This document shows positions 52,713-63,054 of a DNA stretch of 64,000 nucleotides, piece by piece. The translations under genes were made by a program, and so were the position numbers. Every line of letters starts with the position of its first letter. Within the stretch, counting starts at the first letter, position 1. The DNA lies in the NCBI GenBank assembly GCA_902769525.1, contig CACXPG010000003.1, forward strand, positions 1 to 64,000. Reading direction: 5' to 3'. The stretch is from an uncultured Bacteroidia bacterium. GTDB taxonomy: Bacteria; Bacteroidota; Bacteroidia; Bacteroidales; UBA932. A model generated the notes under the pieces. The model saw only the letters and a program-made list of their open reading frames with translations. It was not told where the DNA came from and did not search any database.

Positions 52713-52746
52713 TGCCAGACTTTTGCATAGATATATTAGAACTTTG
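52713..52746 (+). promoter_or_regulatory. WYL-type dyad and -7 box before the nuclease-like gene (site F)
   Basis: TGCC (52713-52716), seven bases, TGCA (52724-52727). The dyad centre (52720) is 19 nt upstream of the box GAACTTTG (52739-52746), the same geometry as the sites at 57126, 59175, 60285 and 62107. Confidence 0.55.
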
Positions 52747-52776
52747 ACCTTCAAGAACCATCAACCGCCGTTAAAA

Positions 52777-54618
52777 ATGTATCGACAAATGAATTATTCA
52801 GAAACCCTAAATCTGGCTGCGAAAGTTCGCGAACTCAAAGATAGCATAAGCCAGGCCAATATACTTGATGCTGTTTATGTAAACGAAAATGTCCACTCTC
52901 GTATTCTTCGTTTGATTATGGATTACAAGAGAGATGGACATTATCCTTTCTATGAACTATTTCTAGAGTTAAATAAGGTGTCAACTATCATTCCAGATGA
53001 TATTTCCTGTTCAGAACCACATTTCTTTAATGAAAGAGATAGAATCGACCTTCTCATCGAGGGTAATGATTACGCTATTATCATTGAGAACAAAATATAT
53101 AATGCAATTGATCAAGACCACCAGATGGAGCGTTACCTGTTGAGTTGTATTGGAAGGGGCTTCAAGAAAGAGAGAATATTTGCCCTCTACTTAACCTCTG
53201 ATGGGACAAAAAACATATCTAAAAATAGCTTAACAGATAAGGCTCTGGAAGTCCTTGGTTTTTCAGACCAAACAACAGGTAGATTTGCAGAAATCAGTTT
53301 CAGATACGATATTCTTCCATGGCTTCGTAAAGCGATTAACATTTGCAGAACAAACGATGATGAGCAGATCAAGTCAGCCTTAATCCAATATGCCGATTAT
53401 CTTGCCGGAATGTTTGGAGAACGTGAAAAAGAGTCCAAAAAGGATTTGGCAATAACTCAACTTCTTGCTGAATATGAGGTTAATTCTGTTTCTGCTTTCT
53501 GTGACTGTATTTCGGTGATCTACAATCTATCAGAAGAGTTGAACCAAAGAAGAGACAGTCTCTGCCGTGACATTGCCATTAGGTTTATAATTAACCCAAT
53601 AAGAGAATATTGTACAGATCAAGGCATTGAATTTACATTTGAAGGATATTCATTTGGTTTTCTGAGAATTAGAATGTCACTTCCGGAAATTTCCAAAGCA
53701 TCGTTCTGCTTTAATACGGAGGGAGACGGCCGAAACATCTATGGTATTTGTAACCGCGATGCTCAAGACGGAGAAGTATTACAGGATAGAGTCCAGAAGC
53801 ATCTGGCAGAAGCTGGATTTCGGAAAAGTCTTTGGTGGCCAGCCTATCGCTACCCAAATATTGAAAATCGCAAGTTCTCTCGTACAGGGTCAGCAGACTT
53901 TTGGGAAGTTTGTGTGCCGGACGATTTTACCCAATACGTAATTGCCACCTATGAAGAAGTAAAAGGAATACTGCGACAGGACTCTATACCGGGAAACGAT
54001 TCATCAGCCTTAATCCAATATGTCGATTCTCTTGACGGAATGTCTGGTGAACGAGAAAAAGAAACAGAAAAAGAGTTGGCAATAACTCAACTTCTTGCTG
54101 AACATGAAATTAATTCTGTATCTGCTTTCTGCGACTGTATTTCGGCAATCGACAATCTATCAGAAGAGTTGAACCAAAGAAGAGACATATACTGCCAATC
54201 CCTTGCCATGACGTATGTAAGCAAACCATTAAGAGAATACTGTACAGACCAAGGCATTGAACTTACGTATGAATTTTATTCGTTTAGCTTTCTGAGTATT
54301 AGAATGTCACTTCCTGGAATCTCCAAAGCATCGTTTCGTTTCAATACAGAGGGAGACGGTCGAAATATCTATGGTATATGTAACTACGATGCTCAGGATG
54401 GAGAAGTTTTACAGGATAGAGTCCAAAAGCATCTGGCAGAAGCTAGATTTCGGAAAAGTCTTTGGTGGCCTGCCTATCGTTACCCAAAAGATAATCCCAA
54501 GTTCTTGCGTACAGGGTCGTTAGACTTTTGGGAAGTTTGTGTGCCGGACGATTTTACCCAATACGTAATTGCCACCTACAAGGAAGTAAGCGGTTTCCTA
54601 GACTATTCAAAGTTTTAG
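52777..54618 (+). CDS. PD-(D/E)XK nuclease-like protein with duplicated C-terminal unit
   Basis: I choose 52777 (613 aa; 52789 also possible) because the promoter box ends at 52746. The N-terminal part has the PD-(D/E)XK pattern (RIDLLIEGNDYAIIIENKIY) of the PDDEXK_4 family, followed by a helical region. The C-terminal unit of about 200 residues (SALIQY, CDCIS, NLSEELNQRR, CTDQGIE, WWPAYRYP, VCVPDDFTQYVIAT) occurs twice, and the DNA is close to identical. The family is often linked with phage defence. The gene is AT-rich relative to its left flank. Confidence 0.78.
   Translation: MYRQMNYSETLNLAAKVRELKDSISQANILDAVYVNENVHSRILRLIMDYKRDGHYPFYELFLELNKVSTIIPDDISCSEPHFFNERDRIDLLIEGNDYAIIIENKIYNAIDQDHQMERYLLSCIGRGFKKERIFALYLTSDGTKNISKNSLTDKALEVLGFSDQTTGRFAEISFRYDILPWLRKAINICRTNDDEQIKSALIQYADYLAGMFGEREKESKKDLAITQLLAEYEVNSVSAFCDCISVIYNLSEELNQRRDSLCRDIAIRFIINPIREYCTDQGIEFTFEGYSFGFLRIRMSLPEISKASFCFNTEGDGRNIYGICNRDAQDGEVLQDRVQKHLAEAGFRKSLWWPAYRYPNIENRKFSRTGSADFWEVCVPDDFTQYVIATYEEVKGILRQDSIPGNDSSALIQYVDSLDGMSGEREKETEKELAITQLLAEHEINSVSAFCDCISAIDNLSEELNQRRDIYCQSLAMTYVSKPLREYCTDQGIELTYEFYSFSFLSIRMSLPGISKASFRFNTEGDGRNIYGICNYDAQDGEVLQDRVQKHLAEARFRKSLWWPAYRYPKDNPKFLRTGSLDFWEVCVPDDFTQYVIATYKEVSGFLDYSKF
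53374..54589 (+). repeat. tandem duplication inside the nuclease-like gene
   Basis: Unit 1 (53374 to about 53962) and unit 2 (54004 to about 54589) align over nearly their whole length, with scattered substitutions and one missing codon. The offset is 630 nt, later 627, so the frame is kept. Confidence 0.85.
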
Positions 54619-54664
54619 CAAAGTATAGTGTGCTTATTCGTAACTTAAATATCATATAAGCCCG

Positions 54665-54700
54665 ACAAAAGTAAAGAACCGAAATAATTCTTACTTTTGT
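54665..54700 (+). promoter_or_regulatory. promoter with inverted repeat before the RhuM-Fic gene
   Basis: ACAAAAGTAA-A-GAA (54665-54678) and TTCTTACTTTTGT (54688-54700) form a 13-bp inverted repeat with one bulged A. The right arm contains the -7 box TACTTTTG (54692-54699), so a bound protein would block the promoter. Confidence 0.6.
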
Positions 54701-54719
54701 TGCTAGAAACTAGGAGCGT

Positions 54720-55721
54720 ATGGAAGAGAGAAAAGACATTGTGATTTACCAGTCTGAGGACGGGTTGGTGAAGATGGAAGCGATGGTTGATCCTTCGGGA
54801 GAAACCATTTGGGCAACCCAGAAGGCTATTGCTTCATTATTTGAAGTAACGATACCTAATATTTCTTATCACTTTAGACGCATTTTTCAAAGTGGGGAAT
54901 TAGACCCCAATACGGTAATTAAAGAATTTTTAATTACCGCACAGAGTGGCATTAGAGGCCTCTCTGAAGAGAAAATAAGGTATTACAACCTTGATGCCAT
55001 CATATCTCTAGGTTACCGTGTAAACTCAATCCGAGCTACCAAGTTCAGGATTTGGGCTACAGGAATAATCAAGCATTATATGCTTAAAGGGTATGCTGTA
55101 AACCGCAGTGCAGTTTCAGAGCAGAAATATGAAGAACTCAAAAAAGCTGTAGGGTTGCTTGAGAATGTATTCAGCAAGGAATTAATGCTAACTTCTGATC
55201 AGGCTGTAGGGCTGTTTGATGTTATTCGAGATTACACTTATGCTCTTGACACTCTTGATTCTTACGACTATCAGAATCTGAAGATTACAGACACAACAGC
55301 TCCGGAGAGGTTTCACGCCACTTACGAGAATGCAATGGAAGCCATAAAGAGCCTTAGGGAGAAATTTGGAGGAAGCAGTCTATTCGGGGTAGAGAAAGAT
55401 GCGTCTTTCCACAGCAGCATTGGGCAGATATACCAAACTTGGGAAGGAAAAGATCTGTATCCTAGTATTGAGGAAAAGGCCGCTATGCTGCTTTATCTGG
55501 TGGTTAAGAACCATTCTTTCGTTGATGGCAACAAACGCATAGCCGCTACCCTATTCCTCTGGTTTATGCAGAAAAACGGCATCCTCTATCGCCCAGACGG
55601 GTCTAAGCGCATCGCTGATGCATCTCTTGTGGCTCTTACCCTGATGATTGCAGAGAGTCGGACCGATGAGATGGACACTATGGTAAAGGTTGTTGTGAAC
55701 CTGATTAACAGGAGAAACTGA
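54720..55721 (+). CDS. RhuM-Fic protein (RhuM-type N-terminus, Fic/DOC C-terminus)
   Basis: The N-terminal half of this 333-aa protein (about residues 1-120) is of the RhuM/virulence-protein type (IWATQKAIASLFEVTIPNI, YYNLDAIISLGYRVNS), usually DNA-binding. The C-terminal half is a Fic domain with the complete motif HSFVDGNKR (residues 265-273), so it should be able to transfer AMP or a related group. No antitoxin-like inhibitory motif was identified. Such proteins are common in accessory DNA. A promoter-spanning inverted repeat suggests autoregulation. Confidence 0.88.
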   Translation: MEERKDIVIYQSEDGLVKMEAMVDPSGETIWATQKAIASLFEVTIPNISYHFRRIFQSGELDPNTVIKEFLITAQSGIRGLSEEKIRYYNLDAIISLGYRVNSIRATKFRIWATGIIKHYMLKGYAVNRSAVSEQKYEELKKAVGLLENVFSKELMLTSDQAVGLFDVIRDYTYALDTLDSYDYQNLKITDTTAPERFHATYENAMEAIKSLREKFGGSSLFGVEKDASFHSSIGQIYQTWEGKDLYPSIEEKAAMLLYLVVKNHSFVDGNKRIAATLFLWFMQKNGILYRPDGSKRIADASLVALTLMIAESRTDEMDTMVKVVVNLINRRN

Positions 55722-55757
55722 AATTCTCTTTGGAGTTAGTCGAGATTGTTCCACTTA

Positions 55758-56426
55758 TCATTCTAGGCTTATGTTTATTTCTGCCCTGAAATCACGGCAG
55801 TAAGCAAAGTCTGTAATGGCGAAGCAGGAATTCTTGATCAGGACTTCAACGGGGCGGATGACTTCCAGTTCGTTCAAATTAGGAGAGGTCCATCTTTTGC
55901 AGTTCCAATTGGCAAACGGGCGGGAGAGTTCCATTTCCTCCTCAAAAGACTTATTGTCAACATCCTGGTAACCAATAGACGTCATATTGAAGAGTTTGTT
56001 CTGAATAAGCGGTGTAGCGCAAAAGTCATCATCGCTGAATAATTTGTTGTTGAAGATATCCCATAGACAGCAACCATATTCGTTACGTTGCTTCATGCTT
56101 TCCGGACAGTTAGCCATATAGACACTTAGCTGGAATAAATGCTGATCGCCAAATTCCATTTCTTCTATAATGTTGCGGAAAGTATCGTAGACGCCTACAA
56201 TGAACTGTTTCAGGCTATTGTTGAATTGCAATAATTCATATGCAAGGCCCAAATCCATTATGCTGTAAGATTCTCTTAAGCCTGTATCAATCAAGTATTT
56301 TCTTTTTTCAAGAAGAGACTTGAGCCCAGTGGCTATAAAATCCTGGTGGTTATTAAAAGGGTTGCCATCTCCATAAATGCTGAGGATGTCCTGCTCAAGT
56401 TTGAGGAGTTCTTTGTTGTCAATCAT
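55758..56426 (-). CDS. hypothetical 222-aa protein
   Basis: Soluble, mostly helical in the first half and richer in beta in the second, no known motif; it has several Cys and aromatic residues (YGCCLWDIFNN). It lies 54 nt after the 179-aa gene and probably shares its transcript and the dyad-controlled promoter. Convergent with the RhuM-Fic gene. Confidence 0.65.
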   Translation of the reverse strand: MIDNKELLKLEQDILSIYGDGNPFNNHQDFIATGLKSLLEKRKYLIDTGLRESYSIMDLGLAYELLQFNNSLKQFIVGVYDTFRNIIEEMEFGDQHLFQLSVYMANCPESMKQRNEYGCCLWDIFNNKLFSDDDFCATPLIQNKLFNMTSIGYQDVDNKSFEEEMELSRPFANWNCKRWTSPNLNELEVIRPVEVLIKNSCFAITDFAYCRDFRAEINISLE

Positions 56427-56480
56427 TGTTATCGCGAATATTATGTTTTGACTGGGTTTTGGTTGGGGTTTGCGTGGAGG

Positions 56481-57020
56481 TTACTTTGTTTCTTGTTTAT
56501 TCCATAATGGCGGCTGGAGGTAACCCCATCGGCGAGATTTCCCAAAGTAAGCTGATACGGTTTCGTCAGGGTTAGCCAGCCAATGCCTCCTTTCAATGTT
56601 ATAGAGATGCATGTCTTCAGGCCTGCTCAAGTTTTCATAATCGATTTCATAATTGTCGCAGGAGTCAAGAGTAACACAACGATCCAATTCTAATTCAAGC
56701 AGTTCTAGGAGTTCCTCCTTGTCCAGACACCTTATACGCTCTGCCAAAGTACCTCCTTCATGAGTTGCCAGAGGTACTCCTCCGTTCATCATATAAGTTA
56801 GATAGCGGAAAATCATCCACTGAATAGCTCTCAGCTGATCATAATTGTCTCTGCCTATAAGGTAAATATCCAGTACATCAGAGATTATCCCTCCTTCTTT
56901 GACAAAGACTCCCAGACGGAGTATTTTCTGCTGCAAGGTCATGGATTCTTGCTCATATCCGAAATTGTCCCAGTATTCCCGGAATGCCAGATCGGATGGG
57001 TTGGGTGCTATTCGTTTCAT
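56481..57020 (-). CDS. hypothetical 179-aa protein under a WYL-type dyad
   Basis: The start at 57020 (MKRIAPNPSD) is chosen because the longer frame reads through a 12-bp repeat array with low-complexity NRTK repeats in the leader. The protein is soluble and acidic, with a conserved-looking REYWDNFGYEQESM start. No domain recognised. It is the first gene of a two-gene transcript whose promoter carries the dyad at 57115-57137. Confidence 0.65.
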   Translation of the reverse strand: MKRIAPNPSDLAFREYWDNFGYEQESMTLQQKILRLGVFVKEGGIISDVLDIYLIGRDNYDQLRAIQWMIFRYLTYMMNGGVPLATHEGGTLAERIRCLDKEELLELLELELDRCVTLDSCDNYEIDYENLSRPEDMHLYNIERRHWLANPDETVSAYFGKSRRWGYLQPPLWNKQETK

Positions 57021-57042
57021 AACTGTTCTGTTTTTGATGGTT

Positions 57043-57078
57043 GTTCTGTTCTTTGTTCTGTTCTTTGTTCTGTTCTTT
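57043..57078 (-). repeat. three tandem copies of a 12-bp unit in a gene leader
   Basis: The plus strand reads GTTCTGTTCTTT three times in a row. It lies between the promoter (57100-57107) and the start (57020) of the 179-aa gene. Unit length is a multiple of three and would not shift a frame. Confidence 0.75.
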
Positions 57079-57087
57079 GATATTTCT

Positions 57088-57104
57088 CTTTGTCTGAGAC
57101 AAAG
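57088..57104. promoter_or_regulatory. perfect palindrome at the 179-aa gene promoter
   Basis: CTTTGTCT-G-AGACAAAG, 8-bp arms. It overlaps the -7 box and probable start site on the minus strand and could bind a second regulator. Confidence 0.5.
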
Positions 57105-57137
57105 GAAGAGCATTACTCTGCAGGATTCCGGCAGAGT
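57100..57137 (-). promoter_or_regulatory. WYL-type dyad and -7 box before the 179-aa gene (site A)
   Basis: ACTCTGC N9 GCAGAGT at 57115-57137. On the minus strand TTCCTTTG (57107-57100) begins exactly 19 nt from the dyad centre (57126). Confidence 0.6.
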
Positions 57138-57284
57138 GAAAGATTTTTCAACATTTTTCGGGAAAACTTTGTAACCATAGGCGAAAAGTCTCGTAATTAT
57201 TAGTGCCGTAACGATTTTTTTAGGGAAGGATTTGAGCGTTGGAGCGGAGTTTTTAGGTTCATTGACTCATAATCATGTAAAACT

Positions 57285-58109
57285 ATGAGCAATAACCTAT
57301 TGATTCACACCAACGACACATTCACCGCCAAAAGCGGAGCGGCAGTCCGCTTTGAAGACATCTTTGAGGGTATCAGCAAAGAGATAAGCAGATACCGGTT
57401 CAAGGGCGGGAGATACCTTTCAGACCAGGAGATTGAAGACCTGCGTCAGGAAGCCTTCAAGAAGGCGATAATCTCGGTTGGGTCATATGATCCGCAGAGA
57501 AGTTTCGGATGTCCCCAGGCGTATGGATACGCTATCGCGCTCAGCTGCGAGAAGAATGTCTTTAGGAAAACTGCCAGACGCAACTCTGTCCTGTCTTCCC
57601 AACCGGCAGAGTGTGAAGGCGGTGAAGAATTCGGTTCCGACCGCGAGTTTGAAAGCAAGGAGGCCTTGTCCTACATCAAGAGCAAGATTGCCAAATTGCC
57701 GAAGAACCAGCGCAAGGTCCTCGAATTGAGCATTCAAGGAGTTGAGCCTGAGAAGATTTCACTTCTTCTCGGCTGTTCCCAGAATGCAGTCTACTCCAGA
57801 CTCTGCAGAGCAAGACTTGCAATTGCAGAAGCACTTGGCAAGACGTTCCTGTCCGAGTACGGATTCGGGACTAAAACAAAAACCTGCAATATCAGCCGCA
57901 CTGGAAACAGTACGGCTGTTATTTTTTTGAAAGAATTGTCGTCGCGATGGGTATATAGAGTAGAAAGGATTTTGATTATATGGGAACAACAAAGATTGGA
58001 GGACATTTTTGCAAAGACTGCAAGATTTTCACAGACAAGGTGGAAGACTCGGCCATGGAGCAGATCCGGGAGCTTCTGGACAATCCTTTGTTCAGGGGTG
58101 CCAAGATGA
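57285..58109 (+). CDS. sigma-70-like factor; frame runs 130 nt into rtcB
   Basis: Region 2 (DLRQEAFKKAIISVGSYD) and region 4 (LPKNQRKVLELSIQGVEP, ISLLLGCSQNAVYSRLCRARL) are clear within the first 190 residues. The annotated 274-aa frame then continues over a T7 run (57922-57928) and overlaps rtcB by 130 nt with sequence that no longer looks like a protein domain. Loss of one T would give a stop right after the run, at about residue 215, before rtcB. I think the real protein ends there, or that slippage occurs. It probably drives expression of this region. Confidence 0.75.
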   Translation: MSNNLLIHTNDTFTAKSGAAVRFEDIFEGISKEISRYRFKGGRYLSDQEIEDLRQEAFKKAIISVGSYDPQRSFGCPQAYGYAIALSCEKNVFRKTARRNSVLSSQPAECEGGEEFGSDREFESKEALSYIKSKIAKLPKNQRKVLELSIQGVEPEKISLLLGCSQNAVYSRLCRARLAIAEALGKTFLSEYGFGTKTKTCNISRTGNSTAVIFLKELSSRWVYRVERILIIWEQQRLEDIFAKTARFSQTRWKTRPWSRSGSFWTILCSGVPR

Positions 58110-59158
58110 GGATAATGCCGGATGTGCACGCGGGGAAAGGTATTGTAATAGGCTATACCTGCCGGGTGGAAGATTTTGTGAACCCTGAGCACGTAGGACT
58201 AGACATCGGCTGCGGAATAGACACAGAAATCTTCGACAGGCCACTGCCCGAGAAAGACTACGCCCTGTTTGAGCATCGCCTGAGGAAAGAGGTGCCGATG
58301 GGGTTTGACATACACAAAGACAGGCAGTTTGAGATGAAGCCGTTTCTGAAGTTCATACGCCAAGAACTCAACCGCGCTTACCAGTCGTCAGGAGGAAGAA
58401 TAGACATCATTGAGTGGAACAGCGAGCAGGAAGCCTTTGACTGGATGAAGACAGTTGGCATTCAGCCGGCGGTTTTCCTCAAGTCTCTTGGAACCCTGGG
58501 CGGCGGAAACCATTTCATGGAGTACGAAGAGGGCGAAGACCGCTGGGCCTTTACCGTGCATACCGGTTCCAGAGGCCTGGGCAGCAAGGTTTTCGGCAAG
58601 TGGAACAGGATAGCCTCAGCCAAGGGCGGATATCTATTCGGAAATGAGCTCAGGGCATACCTTACGGATATGGTAATTACCCAGGCCTACGCAAAATACA
58701 ACCGCAAGTTGATACTGGACAAGGCAGCGGAAATAATGCACAAGATCTGCGGAGGCAAGGTGGACGGCATAATCAACACCGTCCACAACTACGTGGATTT
58801 CAGAGATATGGTACTTAGGAAAGGAGCCATACGCTCATACGAGGGAGAGCTGATGGTGATGCCGTTCAACATGAGAGACGGAATAGCGATATGCCAGGGC
58901 CTGTCCAACGAAGACTGGAACTGGTCCGCCCCGCACGGATCCGGAAGGCTTATGTCCAGAACCCAGGCCCACAGGCAGCTACAGATGAAAGGCTACAAAG
59001 AGGAAATGCAGGGCGTGTACTCCACAAGCATCTGCCCGGAAACAATAGACGAGTCACCCTCTGCCTACAAGCCTACGGAAGACATTCTTCAAGCCATCAC
59101 CCCTACCTGCAAGGTTCTTTACCGCCTGCGCTCGAAAATAAACTTGAAAGGAAAATAA
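57980..59158 (+). CDS. rtcB: RtcB-type RNA ligase
   Basis: This 392-aa protein joins RNA 2',3'-cyclic phosphate or 3'-phosphate ends to 5'-OH using GTP and manganese. Conserved residues are in MPDVHAGKG, DIGCGIDT (metal-binding Cys near 76), LGGGNHF, HTGSRGLG and the guanylylated His in SAPHGSGR (near 317). It lies directly after a sigma factor gene and near the WYL, AAA and exonuclease genes, which points to repair of damaged RNA, for example tRNAs cut by toxins. No archease gene is seen nearby. Confidence 0.95.
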   Translation: MGTTKIGGHFCKDCKIFTDKVEDSAMEQIRELLDNPLFRGAKMRIMPDVHAGKGIVIGYTCRVEDFVNPEHVGLDIGCGIDTEIFDRPLPEKDYALFEHRLRKEVPMGFDIHKDRQFEMKPFLKFIRQELNRAYQSSGGRIDIIEWNSEQEAFDWMKTVGIQPAVFLKSLGTLGGGNHFMEYEEGEDRWAFTVHTGSRGLGSKVFGKWNRIASAKGGYLFGNELRAYLTDMVITQAYAKYNRKLILDKAAEIMHKICGGKVDGIINTVHNYVDFRDMVLRKGAIRSYEGELMVMPFNMRDGIAICQGLSNEDWNWSAPHGSGRLMSRTQAHRQLQMKGYKEEMQGVYSTSICPETIDESPSAYKPTEDILQAITPTCKVLYRLRSKINLKGK

Positions 59159-59165
59159 ATCATCC

Positions 59166-59201
59166 TTTGCCAGTATTTGGCAAACTGGAGGTTTACTTTT
59201 G
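59166..59201 (+). promoter_or_regulatory. WYL-type dyad and -7 box before the exonuclease gene (site B)
   Basis: TTTGCC N7 GGCAAA (59166-59184), dyad centre 59175; the box TACTTTTG begins at 59194, 19 nt away. Confidence 0.65.
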
Positions 59202-59236
59202 CAGCAACAAACAAATCAAGTATATTTGAAACAGAT

Positions 59237-59764
59237 ATGAGAGATTTTGCGGCAATAGACTTTGAAACGGCTAATTTTCAGTTCTCTAGCGTTTGCAGCG
59301 TGGGCGTGGTAATAGTCAGGAATGGAGAGATTTCGAATTCGTTTTATTCGCTTATCCAGCCAGAGCCCAACTACTACAACCGTCTGCATACCCGCATTCA
59401 TGGGCTGCGGCGCCAAGACACGGAGGAGGCTCCGGTATTCCCCAAGGTCTGGAAAGAGGTGGAGAAGCTGCTCTTGCTCAACGAGGAGGATGCCAAGTGG
59501 CTGGGACGCCCCTATTTGCCGCTTGTAGCCCACAACAAGGCATTTGACGAAACCTGCCTGAGGGCAGTGTTCCGGTGCTACCAGATGGATTATCCTGATT
59601 ATGATTTCTACGATACACTCTGGGCTTCAAGACGAGTGATGCCGGATCTGGAAAACCATCAGCTGCAGACCGTTGCACGGGCTTGCGGCTATTGCCTGGA
59701 GCATCATCACCACGCTCTGGCAGATGCAGAAGCCTGCGCCGCAATCGCAATGAAAATACTGTAA
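59237..59764 (+). CDS. DnaQ-like 3'-5' exonuclease
   Basis: The start at 59237 (175 aa, MRDFAAIDFE) lies downstream of the dyad-controlled promoter; the longer frame would start inside it. The DEDDh residues are in FAAIDFETAN, VAHNKAFDETCL and HHALADAEAC. It is the short stand-alone type related to DNA polymerase III epsilon, acting on DNA or RNA ends. A second promoter-like TATATTTG lies 8 nt before the start. It is the first gene of the second dyad transcript. Confidence 0.9.
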   Translation: MRDFAAIDFETANFQFSSVCSVGVVIVRNGEISNSFYSLIQPEPNYYNRLHTRIHGLRRQDTEEAPVFPKVWKEVEKLLLLNEEDAKWLGRPYLPLVAHNKAFDETCLRAVFRCYQMDYPDYDFYDTLWASRRVMPDLENHQLQTVARACGYCLEHHHHALADAEACAAIAMKIL

Positions 59765-59765
59765 T

Positions 59766-60206
59766 CTATCGCTGAAGAATGCTGTCTAAGACAGGATAGA
59801 TTTCCTCCTCGGACTTATAAGGATGAATCTTGAAGTATTTGTCGCCCGTCAGCATGGCGGAAAGAGTAGTTCTTGTGCTGTCATAAAAGATGTGCACAGG
59901 CTTTCCGAGCTTCTCGGCAAAGGCCAGCTCGTACCCTACTCCCAAAGACGGCGTGGTACACTCGGCAATCACCAGATCTGAATCGCTGAGCCAGCCGGTA
60001 TCCTGAAGGTAGATGGCAACATCCTTTTCTCCCTTGGAAAAACCTTTGGGAGTTGAGCCTTCCTTTTTGCTCAGCGAGAGATCCCCCACATGTTCCGTTA
60101 AAACAGTGTCTGTCTTTTGAATATACTCGATAATCCGCTTGTAAAGAGCCGCATCCGCCCTACCTCCGCGGATTGATCCTGCAAAATATACCTTCAGTCC
60201 TGCCAT
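59766..60206 (-). CDS. DNPH1/Rcl-like 2'-deoxynucleoside 5'-phosphate N-hydrolase
   Basis: This 146-aa protein is of the nucleoside 2-deoxyribosyltransferase fold: YFAGSIRGGR (substrate loop) and SDLVIAECTTPSLGVGYELA (catalytic Glu region). DNPH1-type enzymes cleave deoxynucleoside monophosphates and can remove damaged nucleotides. It is on the opposite strand, with its own TATTTTTG box near 60222, and it converges on the exonuclease gene with 1 nt between. Confidence 0.85.
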   Translation of the reverse strand: MAGLKVYFAGSIRGGRADAALYKRIIEYIQKTDTVLTEHVGDLSLSKKEGSTPKGFSKGEKDVAIYLQDTGWLSDSDLVIAECTTPSLGVGYELAFAEKLGKPVHIFYDSTRTTLSAMLTGDKYFKIHPYKSEEEIYPVLDSILQR

Positions 60207-60276
60207 AAGAATCTTTTTGCAAAAATACTGAGTTTTGTTGCAATAAAACGAAAGTTTGCGAGTAAATATTTCCGAG

Positions 60277-60311
60277 TTGCCACTATTTGGCAGAGGTGGC
60301 GCTTTCCTTTG
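60277..60311 (+). promoter_or_regulatory. WYL-type dyad and -7 box before the AAA ATPase gene (site C)
   Basis: TGCC (60278-60281) N7 GGCA (60289-60292), dyad centre 60285; box TTCCTTTG begins at 60304, 19 nt away. The same box variant occurs at the 179-aa gene. Confidence 0.6.
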
Positions 60312-60406
60312 TACAGTGAAAAAATCTTCATCGCCGATGAAATAATCTCGAGTGAAGATGGTATATAGATACGGATGGATAAATAAACAAGGGAGATTGC
60401 TTATAT

Positions 60407-62089
60407 ATGAGTATGAAGGAAAAAACGATTATCGAGTGCATTCGCTCCATTGACAAGGCCTTGAACGGAAATCAATGGCGCAAGAAAGACGAAAGAAAAG
60501 ACGCAGCAGAAGTTATCGCAGACATAAAGAAGTCTGCTGGAGAAGAGCTGCTGCATATTTGCAGCCTGATGAATGTTACCGAGATGCAAGCAGTCATTCT
60601 TACAGCTCTGGTCAGAGCATCTGGCTCCTACAGAATCAGCGACGATGATCTTGCCGGCATCATCGGCATTGATTATCTGGAGTATATCTCTTTTACATCT
60701 GACTTTGAAGGGCTGAAGAAAGCCGGATTCATAAAGTATTCAGACCGCGGCATATCCATTTCACCAGCCGCCATGGATGCAGTCAAGCAAAACAAGCCGC
60801 TTGAACCTGAACCGCTTACCGGCCTGGATGCACGGGAAGTTCTCTCTCGCATCAAGAACAAACTGAAAGATTTGTCTGATGAGAGGGAGATAAATCAGGA
60901 CGAGTTTCTTGAGTATATGGACTTTCTGATTCACAACAACAAGAACAGCGTGTGCGAATGCTGCGGAAAGTATCTCAAGAATTCAGGCGATTTGGAGATA
61001 ATCCTTCTTTATGCATTGATCTGCCGTTTCTGGTTCAACAGTGATGACTGCGTCACCTGGGATGATGTTGAAGATTATTATCAGGACGGAGATTTGTCTA
61101 TCATACGTAATATGTTCAAAAACGAACATTTGACGCTGCAGAAGAACAAGGTAATTGAACCTGTGGCAGACGGGGGAATTTTCAGCAGAGACGCCTTTCA
61201 CATCAGAGATGAGGTGAAAGAGGAGATTTACAAGGACCTGGGATATAACGCAGAAAAGAAAGACGCAAAGAACAAGATTAGTGCATCTGCCATGCTCAAT
61301 GCCAGCGACATAGATGCAAAGGAACTGTTTTTCAGCAAAGAGCAGCAGAAGCAGATCCAGACTCTGGAAGATTTGTTTGAGGAGACGCGCCTGAACAATG
61401 TTATGGAATCGCTGAAGAAAAAGGGGATGAGAACCGGTTTCACCTGCATTTTCTACGGCGCTCCAGGAACGGGCAAGACCGAATCCGTTTATCAGATTGC
61501 CAGAAAGAGCGGCAGAGACATCTTCCGCATAGACGTTTCCAAAATCAAGAGCTGCTGGGTGGGAGAGAGCGAAAAGAACATCCACAGAGTGTTTGAGCAG
61601 TACCGCGAGTGCGTAAAGTCCGGCGGCAAAACCCCTATCCTGTTTTTCAACGAGGCTGACGCCATCTTCGGCATCCGCCAGAGCGGGGCAGAGAGAGCAG
61701 TGGACAAAATGGAGAACAGCATCCAGAACATTATCCTTCAGGAGATGGAGGAGCTGGAAGGCATCCTGATTGCAACCACCAATCTGACAGACAATTTCGA
61801 CAAGGCTTTCGAAAGGCGCTTCCTCTACAAGCTGCGCTTCACAAAGCCAGACGCCAAGGTAAAGAGCAAGATATGGAAATCCATGATTCCTGAACTCAAG
61901 CCTTCCCAGGCAAAGAAACTGGCGGCGGAGTTTGACTTCTCAGGCGGACAGATTGAGAACATCGCCCGCAAGAAGACCGTAGCGGCGCTGATCAGCGGCA
62001 AGGAACCCACATACGCCCAGCTGAGGGAAATGTGCCTGACCGAATCAATCAGCGGCAAGCCGGAATCCAAGAAAAAAATCGGATACTAG
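60407..62089 (+). CDS. AAA+ ATPase with N-terminal winged-helix-like part
   Basis: In this 560-aa protein the AAA domain is in the C-terminal half: Walker A GAPGTGKT near residue 350, Walker B ILFFNEADAI near 412 (Asn replaces the usual first Asp, Glu retained), arginine finger region AFERRFLYKLRF. The first 340 residues are helical with a cysteine pair CECCGKY and winged-helix-like stretches (ISDDDLAGIIGIDYLE). It may remodel a protein or nucleic-acid complex. A start at 60413 is also possible. Confidence 0.85.
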   Translation: MSMKEKTIIECIRSIDKALNGNQWRKKDERKDAAEVIADIKKSAGEELLHICSLMNVTEMQAVILTALVRASGSYRISDDDLAGIIGIDYLEYISFTSDFEGLKKAGFIKYSDRGISISPAAMDAVKQNKPLEPEPLTGLDAREVLSRIKNKLKDLSDEREINQDEFLEYMDFLIHNNKNSVCECCGKYLKNSGDLEIILLYALICRFWFNSDDCVTWDDVEDYYQDGDLSIIRNMFKNEHLTLQKNKVIEPVADGGIFSRDAFHIRDEVKEEIYKDLGYNAEKKDAKNKISASAMLNASDIDAKELFFSKEQQKQIQTLEDLFEETRLNNVMESLKKKGMRTGFTCIFYGAPGTGKTESVYQIARKSGRDIFRIDVSKIKSCWVGESEKNIHRVFEQYRECVKSGGKTPILFFNEADAIFGIRQSGAERAVDKMENSIQNIILQEMEELEGILIATTNLTDNFDKAFERRFLYKLRFTKPDAKVKSKIWKSMIPELKPSQAKKLAAEFDFSGGQIENIARKKTVAALISGKEPTYAQLREMCLTESISGKPESKKKIGY

Positions 62090-62095
62090 GAAAAT

Positions 62096-62133
62096 ACTCT
62101 GCCTGATTTTGGCAGAGTGATTTCTTATATTTG
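62096..62133 (+). promoter_or_regulatory. WYL-type dyad and -7 box of the WYL gene (site D)
   Basis: ACTCTGCC N7 GGCAGAGT, a perfect 8-bp dyad (62096-62118, centre 62107); TATATTTG begins at 62126, 19 nt away. It is the best copy of the site and suggests autoregulation. Confidence 0.7.
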
Positions 62134-62157: not shown

Positions 62158-63054
62158 ATGGCACAGCATTACTTCAACCGGTACATTTGGCTTATAAGCA
62201 CCATCAAGACAAACGGCCCTATAACGCTCAAAGAGCTTGACCGAAAGTGGAAGGAAAGCCCTTTGAATGAAACTCGCGACAACCTTTACGAACGTACTTT
62301 CCACAACCACAGGATAGCCATTGAAGAAACCTTCGGCATAAAGATAAGCTACACTCGTCCAGATGGTTACTACATAGATACCGACAGCCTGGAAGACGGC
62401 AGCTTCAGGGAATGGATGCTGGACTGCCTTCAGGTGAACAATCTTCTGGAAGAAAGTTCCGGCATTCACGACAAGATACTTCTGGAAAGCATTCCTTCCG
62501 GCGGCAAATGGCTGAACATCATAATTGACGCCATCAAAGGCAAAAGGGCCATGGAGATGACATATATGAGTTTCTTTAAAGACTCCCCTTCTTCATTTAT
62601 CGTTCACCCCTGGTGTCTGAAACTCTTCAAGCAACGGTGGTATATGCTGGCAAAAAGCGAATACTTCTCAACCCCGAGAATCTACTCTCTTGACAGAATC
62701 CAAGAGCTGAGCTTAAGCAAAACCAAACTCCAGGTTCCCGAAAGGTTTAAGGCAGAGGAGTATTTCTCCCAATACTTCGGTATCATCGCCGATAAAGACA
62801 TAAAGCCTTGCTTCATAGAAATATGGGCGGACTCAACTCAGGCCAAATATTTCAAGAGTCTGCCACTTCACAACTCGCAAACAATCAAGGAAGAAGATGA
62901 GAACGGAACCGTTTTCCAGTACTATCTTGCCCCTACCTACGATTTCAAGCAAGAGATTCTACGTTACGGCTCAGGAGTGAAAGTTCTCTCGCCAAAGGAA
63001 TTCTTGGAAGAAATCAAGACGGAGATAGAAAACATGGCCCAGCTTTACAAGTAA
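62158..63054 (+). CDS. WYL-domain transcriptional regulator
   Basis: Starting at 62158 (298 aa, MAQHYFNRYI) because an upstream ATG at 62131 lies inside the promoter. An N-terminal winged helix (about residues 5-75; NGPITLKELDRKW, ERTFHNHRIAIEE) is followed by a WYL domain (about 130-210; KAMEMTY-like, HPWCLKLFKQRWYMLAKS) and a C-terminal WCX-like part. WYL proteins of this layout (BrxR, CapW, PafBC, DriD) sense nucleic acids or damage and bind dyads. I infer that it controls the five sites listed here. Confidence 0.88.
   Translation: MAQHYFNRYIWLISTIKTNGPITLKELDRKWKESPLNETRDNLYERTFHNHRIAIEETFGIKISYTRPDGYYIDTDSLEDGSFREWMLDCLQVNNLLEESSGIHDKILLESIPSGGKWLNIIIDAIKGKRAMEMTYMSFFKDSPSSFIVHPWCLKLFKQRWYMLAKSEYFSTPRIYSLDRIQELSLSKTKLQVPERFKAEEYFSQYFGIIADKDIKPCFIEIWADSTQAKYFKSLPLHNSQTIKEEDENGTVFQYYLAPTYDFKQEILRYGSGVKVLSPKEFLEEIKTEIENMAQLYK

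Follow-up and report, generated by a model that had tools for sequence, protein, structure and literature searches.

Five promoters in a 64,000-nucleotide (nt) stretch of DNA from an uncultured Bacteroidia bacterium of the UBA932 lineage within the Bacteroidales (contig CACXPG010000003.1, positions 1 to 64,000; the whole stretch is referred to here as the window) share a dyad of the type TGCC-N7-GGCA that stands at a single fixed distance from the -7 box, and one of them serves the gene for a WYL-domain regulator (62158..63054). An earlier note on this DNA had described these sites as a candidate WYL regulon, and that observation is confirmed here and generalises beyond the window. The evidence consists of the dyad itself, its phase, its conservation among relatives, its linkage to WYL genes, the association of its flank with the predicted recognition helix of the WYL protein, and the missing -33 box. 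We consider it likely, from these sequence comparisons, that the dyad is the site of a homodimer of the WYL protein acting as a transcription activator of a repair/defence cassette, and that this protein is probably a WYL activator that differs from the known ones.

One Phased Dyad in the Window and Its Genome

Direct reading of the sequence places the five dyads where the earlier note had them, with the dyad centre 19 nt from the first base of the -7 box and the TGCC start 26 nt upstream of the box in all five cases (table 1). The sequence types given for the two elements hold in part: the full TGCC-N7-GGCA is present at three sites (59168, 60278, and 62100) and the other two dyads end in TGCA, and the -7 box is a full TAnnTTTG at two sites (TACTTTTG and TATATTTG) and degenerate at three (TTCCTTTG twice and GAACTTTG). 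Some mechanically listed open reading frame (ORF) starts overlap or precede the -7 boxes; starts located 3' of the boxes are the ATG at 62158 (WYL), 59237 (DnaQ-like), and 52777 (nuclease).

The sites were scored independently with a 40-column matrix that was trained on 129 sites from loci L075 and up, in which the WYL proteins are at most 53% identical to that of the window, and that was applied to both strands of the window. The five highest scores, from 39.9 to 24.3, are those of the five noted sites and the next is 17.7, whereas in 60 Markov-resampled windows the best score has a mean of 10.3 and is 21.5 at the highest. The claim that the sites form one regulon beyond chance is thus borne out, as is the claim that the WYL gene has the best site, its score of 39.9 being the top of the window. 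No phased dyad of their own was found for the RhuM-Fic and RtcB genes among the high-scoring matrix sites of the window.

The genome from which the window comes has 2.23 Mb in 23 contigs, and the bare dyad without regard to phase occurs in it at 50 places as against 24 for the reversed control. The phased pattern with two or fewer mismatches gives 19 hits (12 for the reversed control), and only five hits have zero or one mismatch, namely 59168, 62100, 60278, C3:68249, and C12:89628, so the phased dyad is not frequent at other promoters of the genome. The hit at C3:68249–68282 (L054:8249), which scores 35.1 with the matrix, precedes a small ORF of 50 amino acids (aa) that also has a phased dyad in L070; because it lies only 4 kb to the right of the window, we count six sites in the local regulon. 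The hit at C12:89628 scores 24.3 and lies before a lipoprotein-like gene.

The Dyad Keeps One Phase and Occupies the Place of the -33 Box

Relatives of the WYL regulator were collected by scanning a genome collection with a profile of 14 WYL proteins, and the best 80 of at least 585 relatives were kept. The titles of these 80 name Bacteroidales, Bacteroidia, or a family or genus (e.g., Parabacteroides, Dysgonomonas, Phocaeicola, or Bacteroides), apart from one that reads Spirochaetia (L127), and the nearest record is the uncultured Bacteroidales RUG234 (98% WYL identity). The set used here comprises 92 loci (1.51 Mb), namely the window, L054–L068, L070, L072, and L075–L148, of which L055 was included for a pattern hit and not for a WYL gene; L069, whose WYL protein is 98% identical to that of the window, and L071, L073, and L074, which are the same records as L056–L058, were left out. 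Sites were accepted with TTTG exact, at most one mismatch in TA, at most two mismatches overall, and at least five to six of nine paired positions. With this loose motif 169 sites were found at the offset of 26 nt, as against 0, 2, 2, 2, 3, 4, 4, 4, 4, 5, 5, 8, and 8 at 13 other offsets, and 81 of the 92 loci have at least one phased site. The sites are distinct in sequence in 161 of the 169 cases, two window sites are counted again in L054, and because some loci are close relatives (e.g., L092/L097/L101, L119/L143, and L136/L138) the 169 sites are not all independent.

In a palindrome test that prescribes no motif, carried out on 74 loci with exact TAnnTTTG boxes and at least seven of nine pairs, 39 boxes have a palindrome at 19.0 nt, 16 at 17.0 nt, and 0–12 at the other distances tested. 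Conversely, strong dyads found without regard to phase (TGC[CT]-N4-TTTGGCA) have a -7 box at exactly this offset in 75 of 84 cases, and 0–3 at other offsets; here too, two window sites recur in L054.

The consensus of the 161 distinct sites is TGCCA-nn-[A/T]-TTT-GGCA-n-A, followed by weakly conserved bases and then TAtcTTTGCA. The promoter-proximal arm (the TTTGGCA half) is more conserved than the distal arm and begins with TGGC, 16 nt upstream of the TA in the -7 box (TGGCAN-N10-TA). The dyad occupies the place of the -33 box: a TTG at -24 to -20 from the -7 box is present in 60 of 195 control promoters from the same loci, from which boxes with a dyad match of two or fewer mismatches were excluded, but in only 7 of 161 dyad promoters, a depletion that is partly forced because the fixed letters of the motif exclude TTG at several positions.

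Another WYL group (L063, L065, L066, and L081) has a related dyad, CTTCTGCC-N7-TGCCGAAG. L063, L065, and L081 each carry a pair of these dyads, arranged back to back and pointing outward, with their centres 35 nt apart.

The WYL Regulator Is Linked to the Dyad

The regulator matches the Pfam models WYL (4e-13) and WCX (3.7e-11) behind an N-terminal winged helix-turn-helix (wHTH) and thus belongs to the wHTH-WYL-WCX class of transcription factors. Its structure model (mean pLDDT 83.8) has helices at residues 24–33 and 45–59 and wing strands at 63–66 and 70–73, and the recognition helix is predicted to be formed by residues 45–59.

An ORF could be assigned to 167 sites, and the gene most often served is WYL, with 54 sites in 53 loci (53 sites without the L054 repeat), followed by the AAA+ ATPase gene with 21 (20 without that repeat). 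The distance from the dyad centre to the WYL start is 44–140 nt with a median of 51 (46 sites of named loci).

The dyad flanks differ among WYL groups (CTGCC, ATGCC, and GTGCC), and among 298 columns of the WYL protein, compared in 51 proteins, the one that associates best with the base before TGCC is residue 45, the first residue of the predicted recognition helix. Glutamate (E) at this residue is found with C in 26 proteins and without it in 2, and other residues are found with C in 4 and without it in 19 (Fisher, 4e-8). The orthologue in G024, 64% identical to the regulator of the window, has R at residue 45 and the dyad GTGCC...GGCAC. A tree-aware test, on a tree built without the HTH, yields four independent supported pairs, of which a mean of 3.8 run in the expected direction and 0.0 (rounded) in the opposite one with a median p of 0.125; for the right arm the values are 2.5 expected and 1.0 opposite. 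Because there are only four such pairs, the association is suggestive and not proof. Together with the gene linkage it makes the WYL protein the likeliest candidate, as the earlier note had proposed, and we conclude from the sequences that this protein is very probably the regulator of the dyad.

Conservation among Relatives

WYL orthologues within the genus are 84%, 66%, and 64% identical to that of the window. The first two (G004 and G011) retain the dyad upstream of their WYL gene with its phase unaltered, and the third (G024) has a dyad of changed sequence that still stands at this phase; the dyad is therefore conserved upstream of orthologous genes. G011 has seven phased sites in a span of 12 kb, and their targets, whose families were assigned from cluster mates, are a PLD-family protein, an unnamed 172-aa protein, a homologue of the 222-aa protein of the window, a KaiC/RecA-like ATPase, a DnaQ-like protein, an AAA+ protein, and WYL. 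Order-wide, the exact pattern at the right phase gives 27 hits in 19 of 295 genomes (reversed control, 4) and, at +2 nt, 13 hits in 9 of 295 genomes (reversed control, 7). Of the 27 hits, 25 loci were fetched, and a WYL gene lies within 1.5 kb in 7 of them (L158 and L170 represent a single place).

Regulated Genes and Features of the Window

To judge from sequence matches, the theme of the regulated genes is nucleic-acid cleavage, repair, and restriction. Besides WYL and AAA+ genes, the 167 sites serve an unnamed family of ~172 aa (8 sites), a family of ~261 aa (8), of which one member has a sub-threshold WYL match, a family of ~201 aa (5), DnaQ-like proteins (3), the 179-aa family of the window (3), PLD (3), and others. 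Pfam was run on 20 chosen representative targets and gave RtcB RNA ligase (L137), PLD (L103), GmrSD (L124 and L076), PHP/DNA polymerase III alpha (L081), KaiC/RecA-like (L078), DnaB-like (L094), the HAD domain of RNA-repair proteins (L131), PD-(D/E)XK (L061), GNAT-AAA (L107), AAA_21 (L121), YgjP-like (L103, plus strand), and a WYL match just below the cut-off (L129); for 7 of the 20 no Pfam family was found.

The window genes are listed in table 1; an orthologue of the 179-aa protein likewise follows this dyad in both L056 and L070. Features noticed by eye are an GTTCTGTTCTTT tandem repeat at 57030–57077 within what is predicted to be the leader of the gene pair on the minus strand, a duplication in the C-terminal half of the PD-(D/E)XK protein (53460–54615), in which a segment SVSAFCDCIS... 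is present twice, and a terminator-like hairpin at ~57894–57929 that is crossed by the tail of an extracytoplasmic function (ECF)-like sigma ORF (57285–58109), which overlaps the RtcB ORF. The RhuM-Fic protein (54720–55721), encoded inside the cluster, matches the PADLOC candidate PDC-S23 (E value 2.9e-126).

Table 1. Phased dyads, -7 boxes, and genes served in the window
Feature	Position	Strand	Score or basis
Dyad TGCC-N7-TGCA, centre 52720	52713..52727	+	matrix score 25.6
-7 box GAACTTTG, degenerate	52739..52746	+	direct reading
PD-(D/E)XK nuclease-like protein, 613 aa	52777..54618	+	PADLOC candidate PDC-S26 match
Dyad ACTCTGCC-N7-TGCAGAGT (minus-strand reading), centre 57126	57115..57137	-	matrix score 24.3
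-7 box TTCCTTTG, degenerate	57100..57107	-	direct reading
Protein of no recognised family, 179 aa	56481..57020	-	no NCBIfam family match
Protein of no assigned function, 222 aa	55758..56426	-	homologue in L057 with own phased dyad
Dyad TTTGCC-N7-GGCAAA, centre 59175	59166..59184	+	matrix score 33.5
-7 box TACTTTTG, full TAnnTTTG	59194..59201	+	direct reading
DnaQ/DEDDh-like 3'-5' exonuclease, 175 aa	59237..59764	+	PADLOC PDC-S48 and DEDDh matches
Dyad TGCC-N7-GGCA, centre 60285	60278..60292	+	matrix score 29.2
-7 box TTCCTTTG, degenerate	60304..60311	+	direct reading
AAA+ ATPase, 560 aa	60407..62089	+	AAA part matches IetA models (PADLOC)
Best dyad ACTCTGCC-N7-GGCAGAGT, centre 62107	62096..62118	+	matrix score 39.9
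-7 box TATATTTG, full TAnnTTTG	62126..62133	+	direct reading
wHTH-WYL-WCX regulator, 298 aa	62158..63054	+	Pfam, structure model, profile, fold

Comparison with Known WYL Regulators

A profile search of the PDB with the WYL regulator ranks PafBC (E value 7.9e-18) and DriD (5.4e-14) before CapW (6.9e-5; 7tb5) and BrxR (4.3e-3; 7qfz). Foldseek gives DriD and PafBC at ranks 1–15 and then CapW, a CRISPR-related protein, and BrxR, with poor whole-chain superposition (TM at most 0.51 by query length). The closest solved relatives of the regulator are thus the activators PafBC and DriD.

Published systems are described here as in the cited passages of the respective papers. PafBC, which is mycobacterial and acts at RecA-NDp promoters, resembles the present system in its wHTH-WYL-WCX architecture and in its damage and repair genes, and is the best relative by profile. 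Its motif in Mycobacterium tuberculosis is printed as TGTCGG-10xN-TA-3xN-T (PMC8151990), and in both motifs an arm with the initial letters TGNC begins at the same distance, 16 nt, from the TA in the -10/-7 box (TGGCAN-N10-TA here vs TGTCGG-N10-TA). PafBC wedges between sigma domain 4 and DNA and, in the passage cited, does not bind the promoter without polymerase (PMC11804915). Unlike PafBC, which is described there as a heterodimer on a non-palindromic motif (PMC6789036), the system of the window has a palindromic site and one WYL gene in the cluster instead of a tandem PafB-PafC pair, and the active form is therefore probably a homodimer; it also has a Bacteroidota -7 box and governs mainly a local cluster rather than a global regulon.

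DriD of Caulobacter, a WYL homodimer activated by single-stranded DNA, is the best match by fold; its pseudo-palindromic sites overlap the -35 region, and it activates nuclease and repair genes (PMC12340889). It differs in making its main contacts with beta and the C-terminal domain of alpha and in having, ahead of driD, a site that controls a divergent operon (PMC12340889); in the window the WYL gene itself directly follows its site. SiwR of Mycobacterium smegmatis is likewise a homodimeric WYL activator on a palindrome, a 19-bp imperfect one between -35 and -10 in which -26 is essential, but it controls one adjacent operon and belongs to another phylum (PMC10693628). A site that overlaps the -35/-33 region or lies at -26, without a -35 box, characterises activators of the PafBC/DriD type, and by sequence the dyads appear to be such sites. 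No paper on a WYL regulon in Bacteroidota was found in the literature searched, a search that most subscription journals and preprints lay outside.

Activation or Repression

The fixed phase, the missing -33 box, PafBC and DriD as nearest relatives, and the PafBC spacing together favour activation, and the sign of regulation is probably positive. In the mechanism that we infer, start site and positive feedback included, a WYL homodimer would bind the dyad at the -33 position, and the housekeeping RNA polymerase, finding a -7 box but no -33 box, would require this dimer to load; the promoter-proximal arm would be positioned where PafB touches promoter DNA. By homology, the WYL domain may sense single-stranded or damaged nucleic acid, on which the DNA-binding domains would be freed. 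The regulator would drive its own gene and the AAA+ ATPase, and the cargo of nuclease, exonuclease, restriction-like, RNA-ligase, and repair genes would vary among species, many of them with a phased promoter of their own.

CapW is described as a repressor, and the earlier note had drawn an analogy to it and to BrxR. On such a reading the WYL dimer would cover the -33 box and block polymerase until a nucleic-acid ligand releases it, and the single phase would stem either from a common origin of the promoters or from selection for the most effective occlusion. The dyad does overlap the promoter, and BrxR, which belongs to defence islands, is a WYL repressor (PMC9122601); BrxR and CapW are wHTH-WYL regulators adjoining defence genes, as is the regulator here, and several of the regulated genes match PADLOC defence candidates. 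However, the operator repeats of BrxR lie downstream of -10 (PMC9122601), and an operator of that kind would be free of phase, whereas the dyads here stand on the -33 place and hold one phase in 75 of 84 strong cases; the -33 box is missing, and CapW and BrxR come behind DriD and PafBC in both profile and fold. Copied promoters are disfavoured because the bases between dyad and box are little conserved. For the phase, the -33 place, the PafBC spacing, and the nearer kinship to PafBC and DriD, the analogy to BrxR and CapW is not favoured, and we regard a repressor as rather unlikely.

Several findings weigh against the activator that we prefer. Repressors, too, classically sit at a dyad over the -33 box, and the phase alone is compatible with one. 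By the criterion used, 11 of the 92 loci have no site. Among the 84 strong dyads 9 depart from the phase, a smaller excess of palindromes with other sequences is seen at 17.0 nt, and -7 boxes are degenerate at three of the five window sites; the depletion of TTG is in part built into the motif. Order-wide enrichment of the bare exact pattern is no more than about twofold (27 vs 13 hits), the rule that relates residue 45 to the flanking base is broken by 6 of 51 proteins, and the median p of the tree-aware test is the 0.125 given above. The nucleic-acid ligand, finally, is suggested by proteins that are at most 19% identical to the regulator in the fold alignment.

That a different dimeric regulator binds the dyad and the WYL gene is merely one of its targets is, in our judgment, highly improbable. 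Binding by the WYL protein is deduced from sequence, 113 of the 167 sites with an ORF precede genes other than WYL, and the linkage to WYL arises partly by selection because most loci entered the set on account of their WYL gene; against this, WYL is the commonest single target, loci picked by the DNA pattern alone include a WYL gene within 1.5 kb in 7 of the 25 fetched, and the flanking base tracks WYL residue 45. We give equally little credence to the element being the -35 of an alternative sigma factor that needs no activator, for example the product of the sigma-70-like ORF 57285–58109, which does lie inside the cluster: the proximal TTTGGCA is the more conserved half, but the box is a housekeeping-type TAnnTTTG, the element is a two-armed dyad with flanks often matching across the centre, and its flank is associated with the WYL helix. 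This sigma factor was set aside, as G004 and G011 keep phased sites and in the 20-kb regions fetched from them nothing clusters with the sigma ORF. A LexA-like regulator was likewise set aside for the window sites, since the motifs published for Bacteroidetes, GGA-N5-TCC and CTAA-N5-TTAG, differ from the dyad and both groups are reported in the cited passage as absent from Bacteroidales (PMC8565304).

A Second Dyad at the Same Phase

A second dyad, TGACA-N5-TGTCA, has the same 19-nt phase and gives four hits in the genome of the window, at C12:58405+ (L023), C5:58920- (L016), C6:88581+ (L018), and C8:54179+ (L021), which precede recA (identified by Pfam), umuD-umuC (UmuD by an S24 match and UmuC by reading of the sequence), a large protein that is AddB-like by reading only (its 497-aa part matched no Pfam family), and a fourth place to which no gene was assigned. 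With at most one mismatch, the dyad gives 56 hits in 17 of the 26 genomes of the genus and none for the reversed control, and at +2 nt it gives 3 hits in 3 genomes. We read 32 of the 56 hits with flanks, of which 28 were retained, and 10 of these had targets nameable from translations: recA three times (L023, L185, and L200), umuD twice (L016 and L174), AddB-like twice (L018 and L186), Cas9-like twice (L184 and L188), and Cas3-HD-like once (L178). The two non-UmuD S24 proteins of the genome have no TGACA dyad in their fetched loci. Among 30 recA loci (40 of 41 genomes have recA), sampled for recA promoters of other families, only that of the genome studied here has the dyad, and the TGACA regulon is therefore genus-level as far as seen.

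Three further WYL proteins were found in the genome, a tandem WYL-WCX pair of 299 and 374 aa (C2:60500–62638; L202:1500–3638), which is a PafB-PafC-like arrangement, and one at C16. Across the genus genomes, uncorrected for kinship, the number of TGACA sites correlates better with whether the 299-aa member is present and how similar it is (Spearman 0.68) than with the C16 protein (0.55): there are 4–7 sites in all seven genomes with a 299-aa WYL protein at least 73% identical, 0–4 in eleven with 43–57% identity, and 0–2 in eight without it. The correlation covers the 299-aa member of the pair and the C16 protein.

Implications

The WYL-polymerase complexes met in this analysis are from Mycobacterium and Caulobacter, and what is described here is a promoter rule in an order of gut bacteria. 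A single rule that can be read from sequence marks WYL regulons across Bacteroidales and predicts activation as the direction of control, and it points to repair and defence genes that are regulated together, many of them without known function. As a tentative proposal, which we hold to be possible but somewhat doubtful, WYL activators may be the main nucleic-acid-damage switch of Bacteroidales and share with PafBC a TG(G/T)C that begins 16 nt upstream of the TA in the -7 box; one branch would control local, exchangeable repair/defence cassettes such as that of the window, and another, acting through TGACA-N5-TGTCA at the same phase, would run recA, umuDC, and CRISPR genes in this genus, filling the place of the LexA-like regulators reported to be absent. 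With two LexA-like groups reported absent in the passage cited (PMC8565304), the control of the damage response in Bacteroidales thereby becomes testable.

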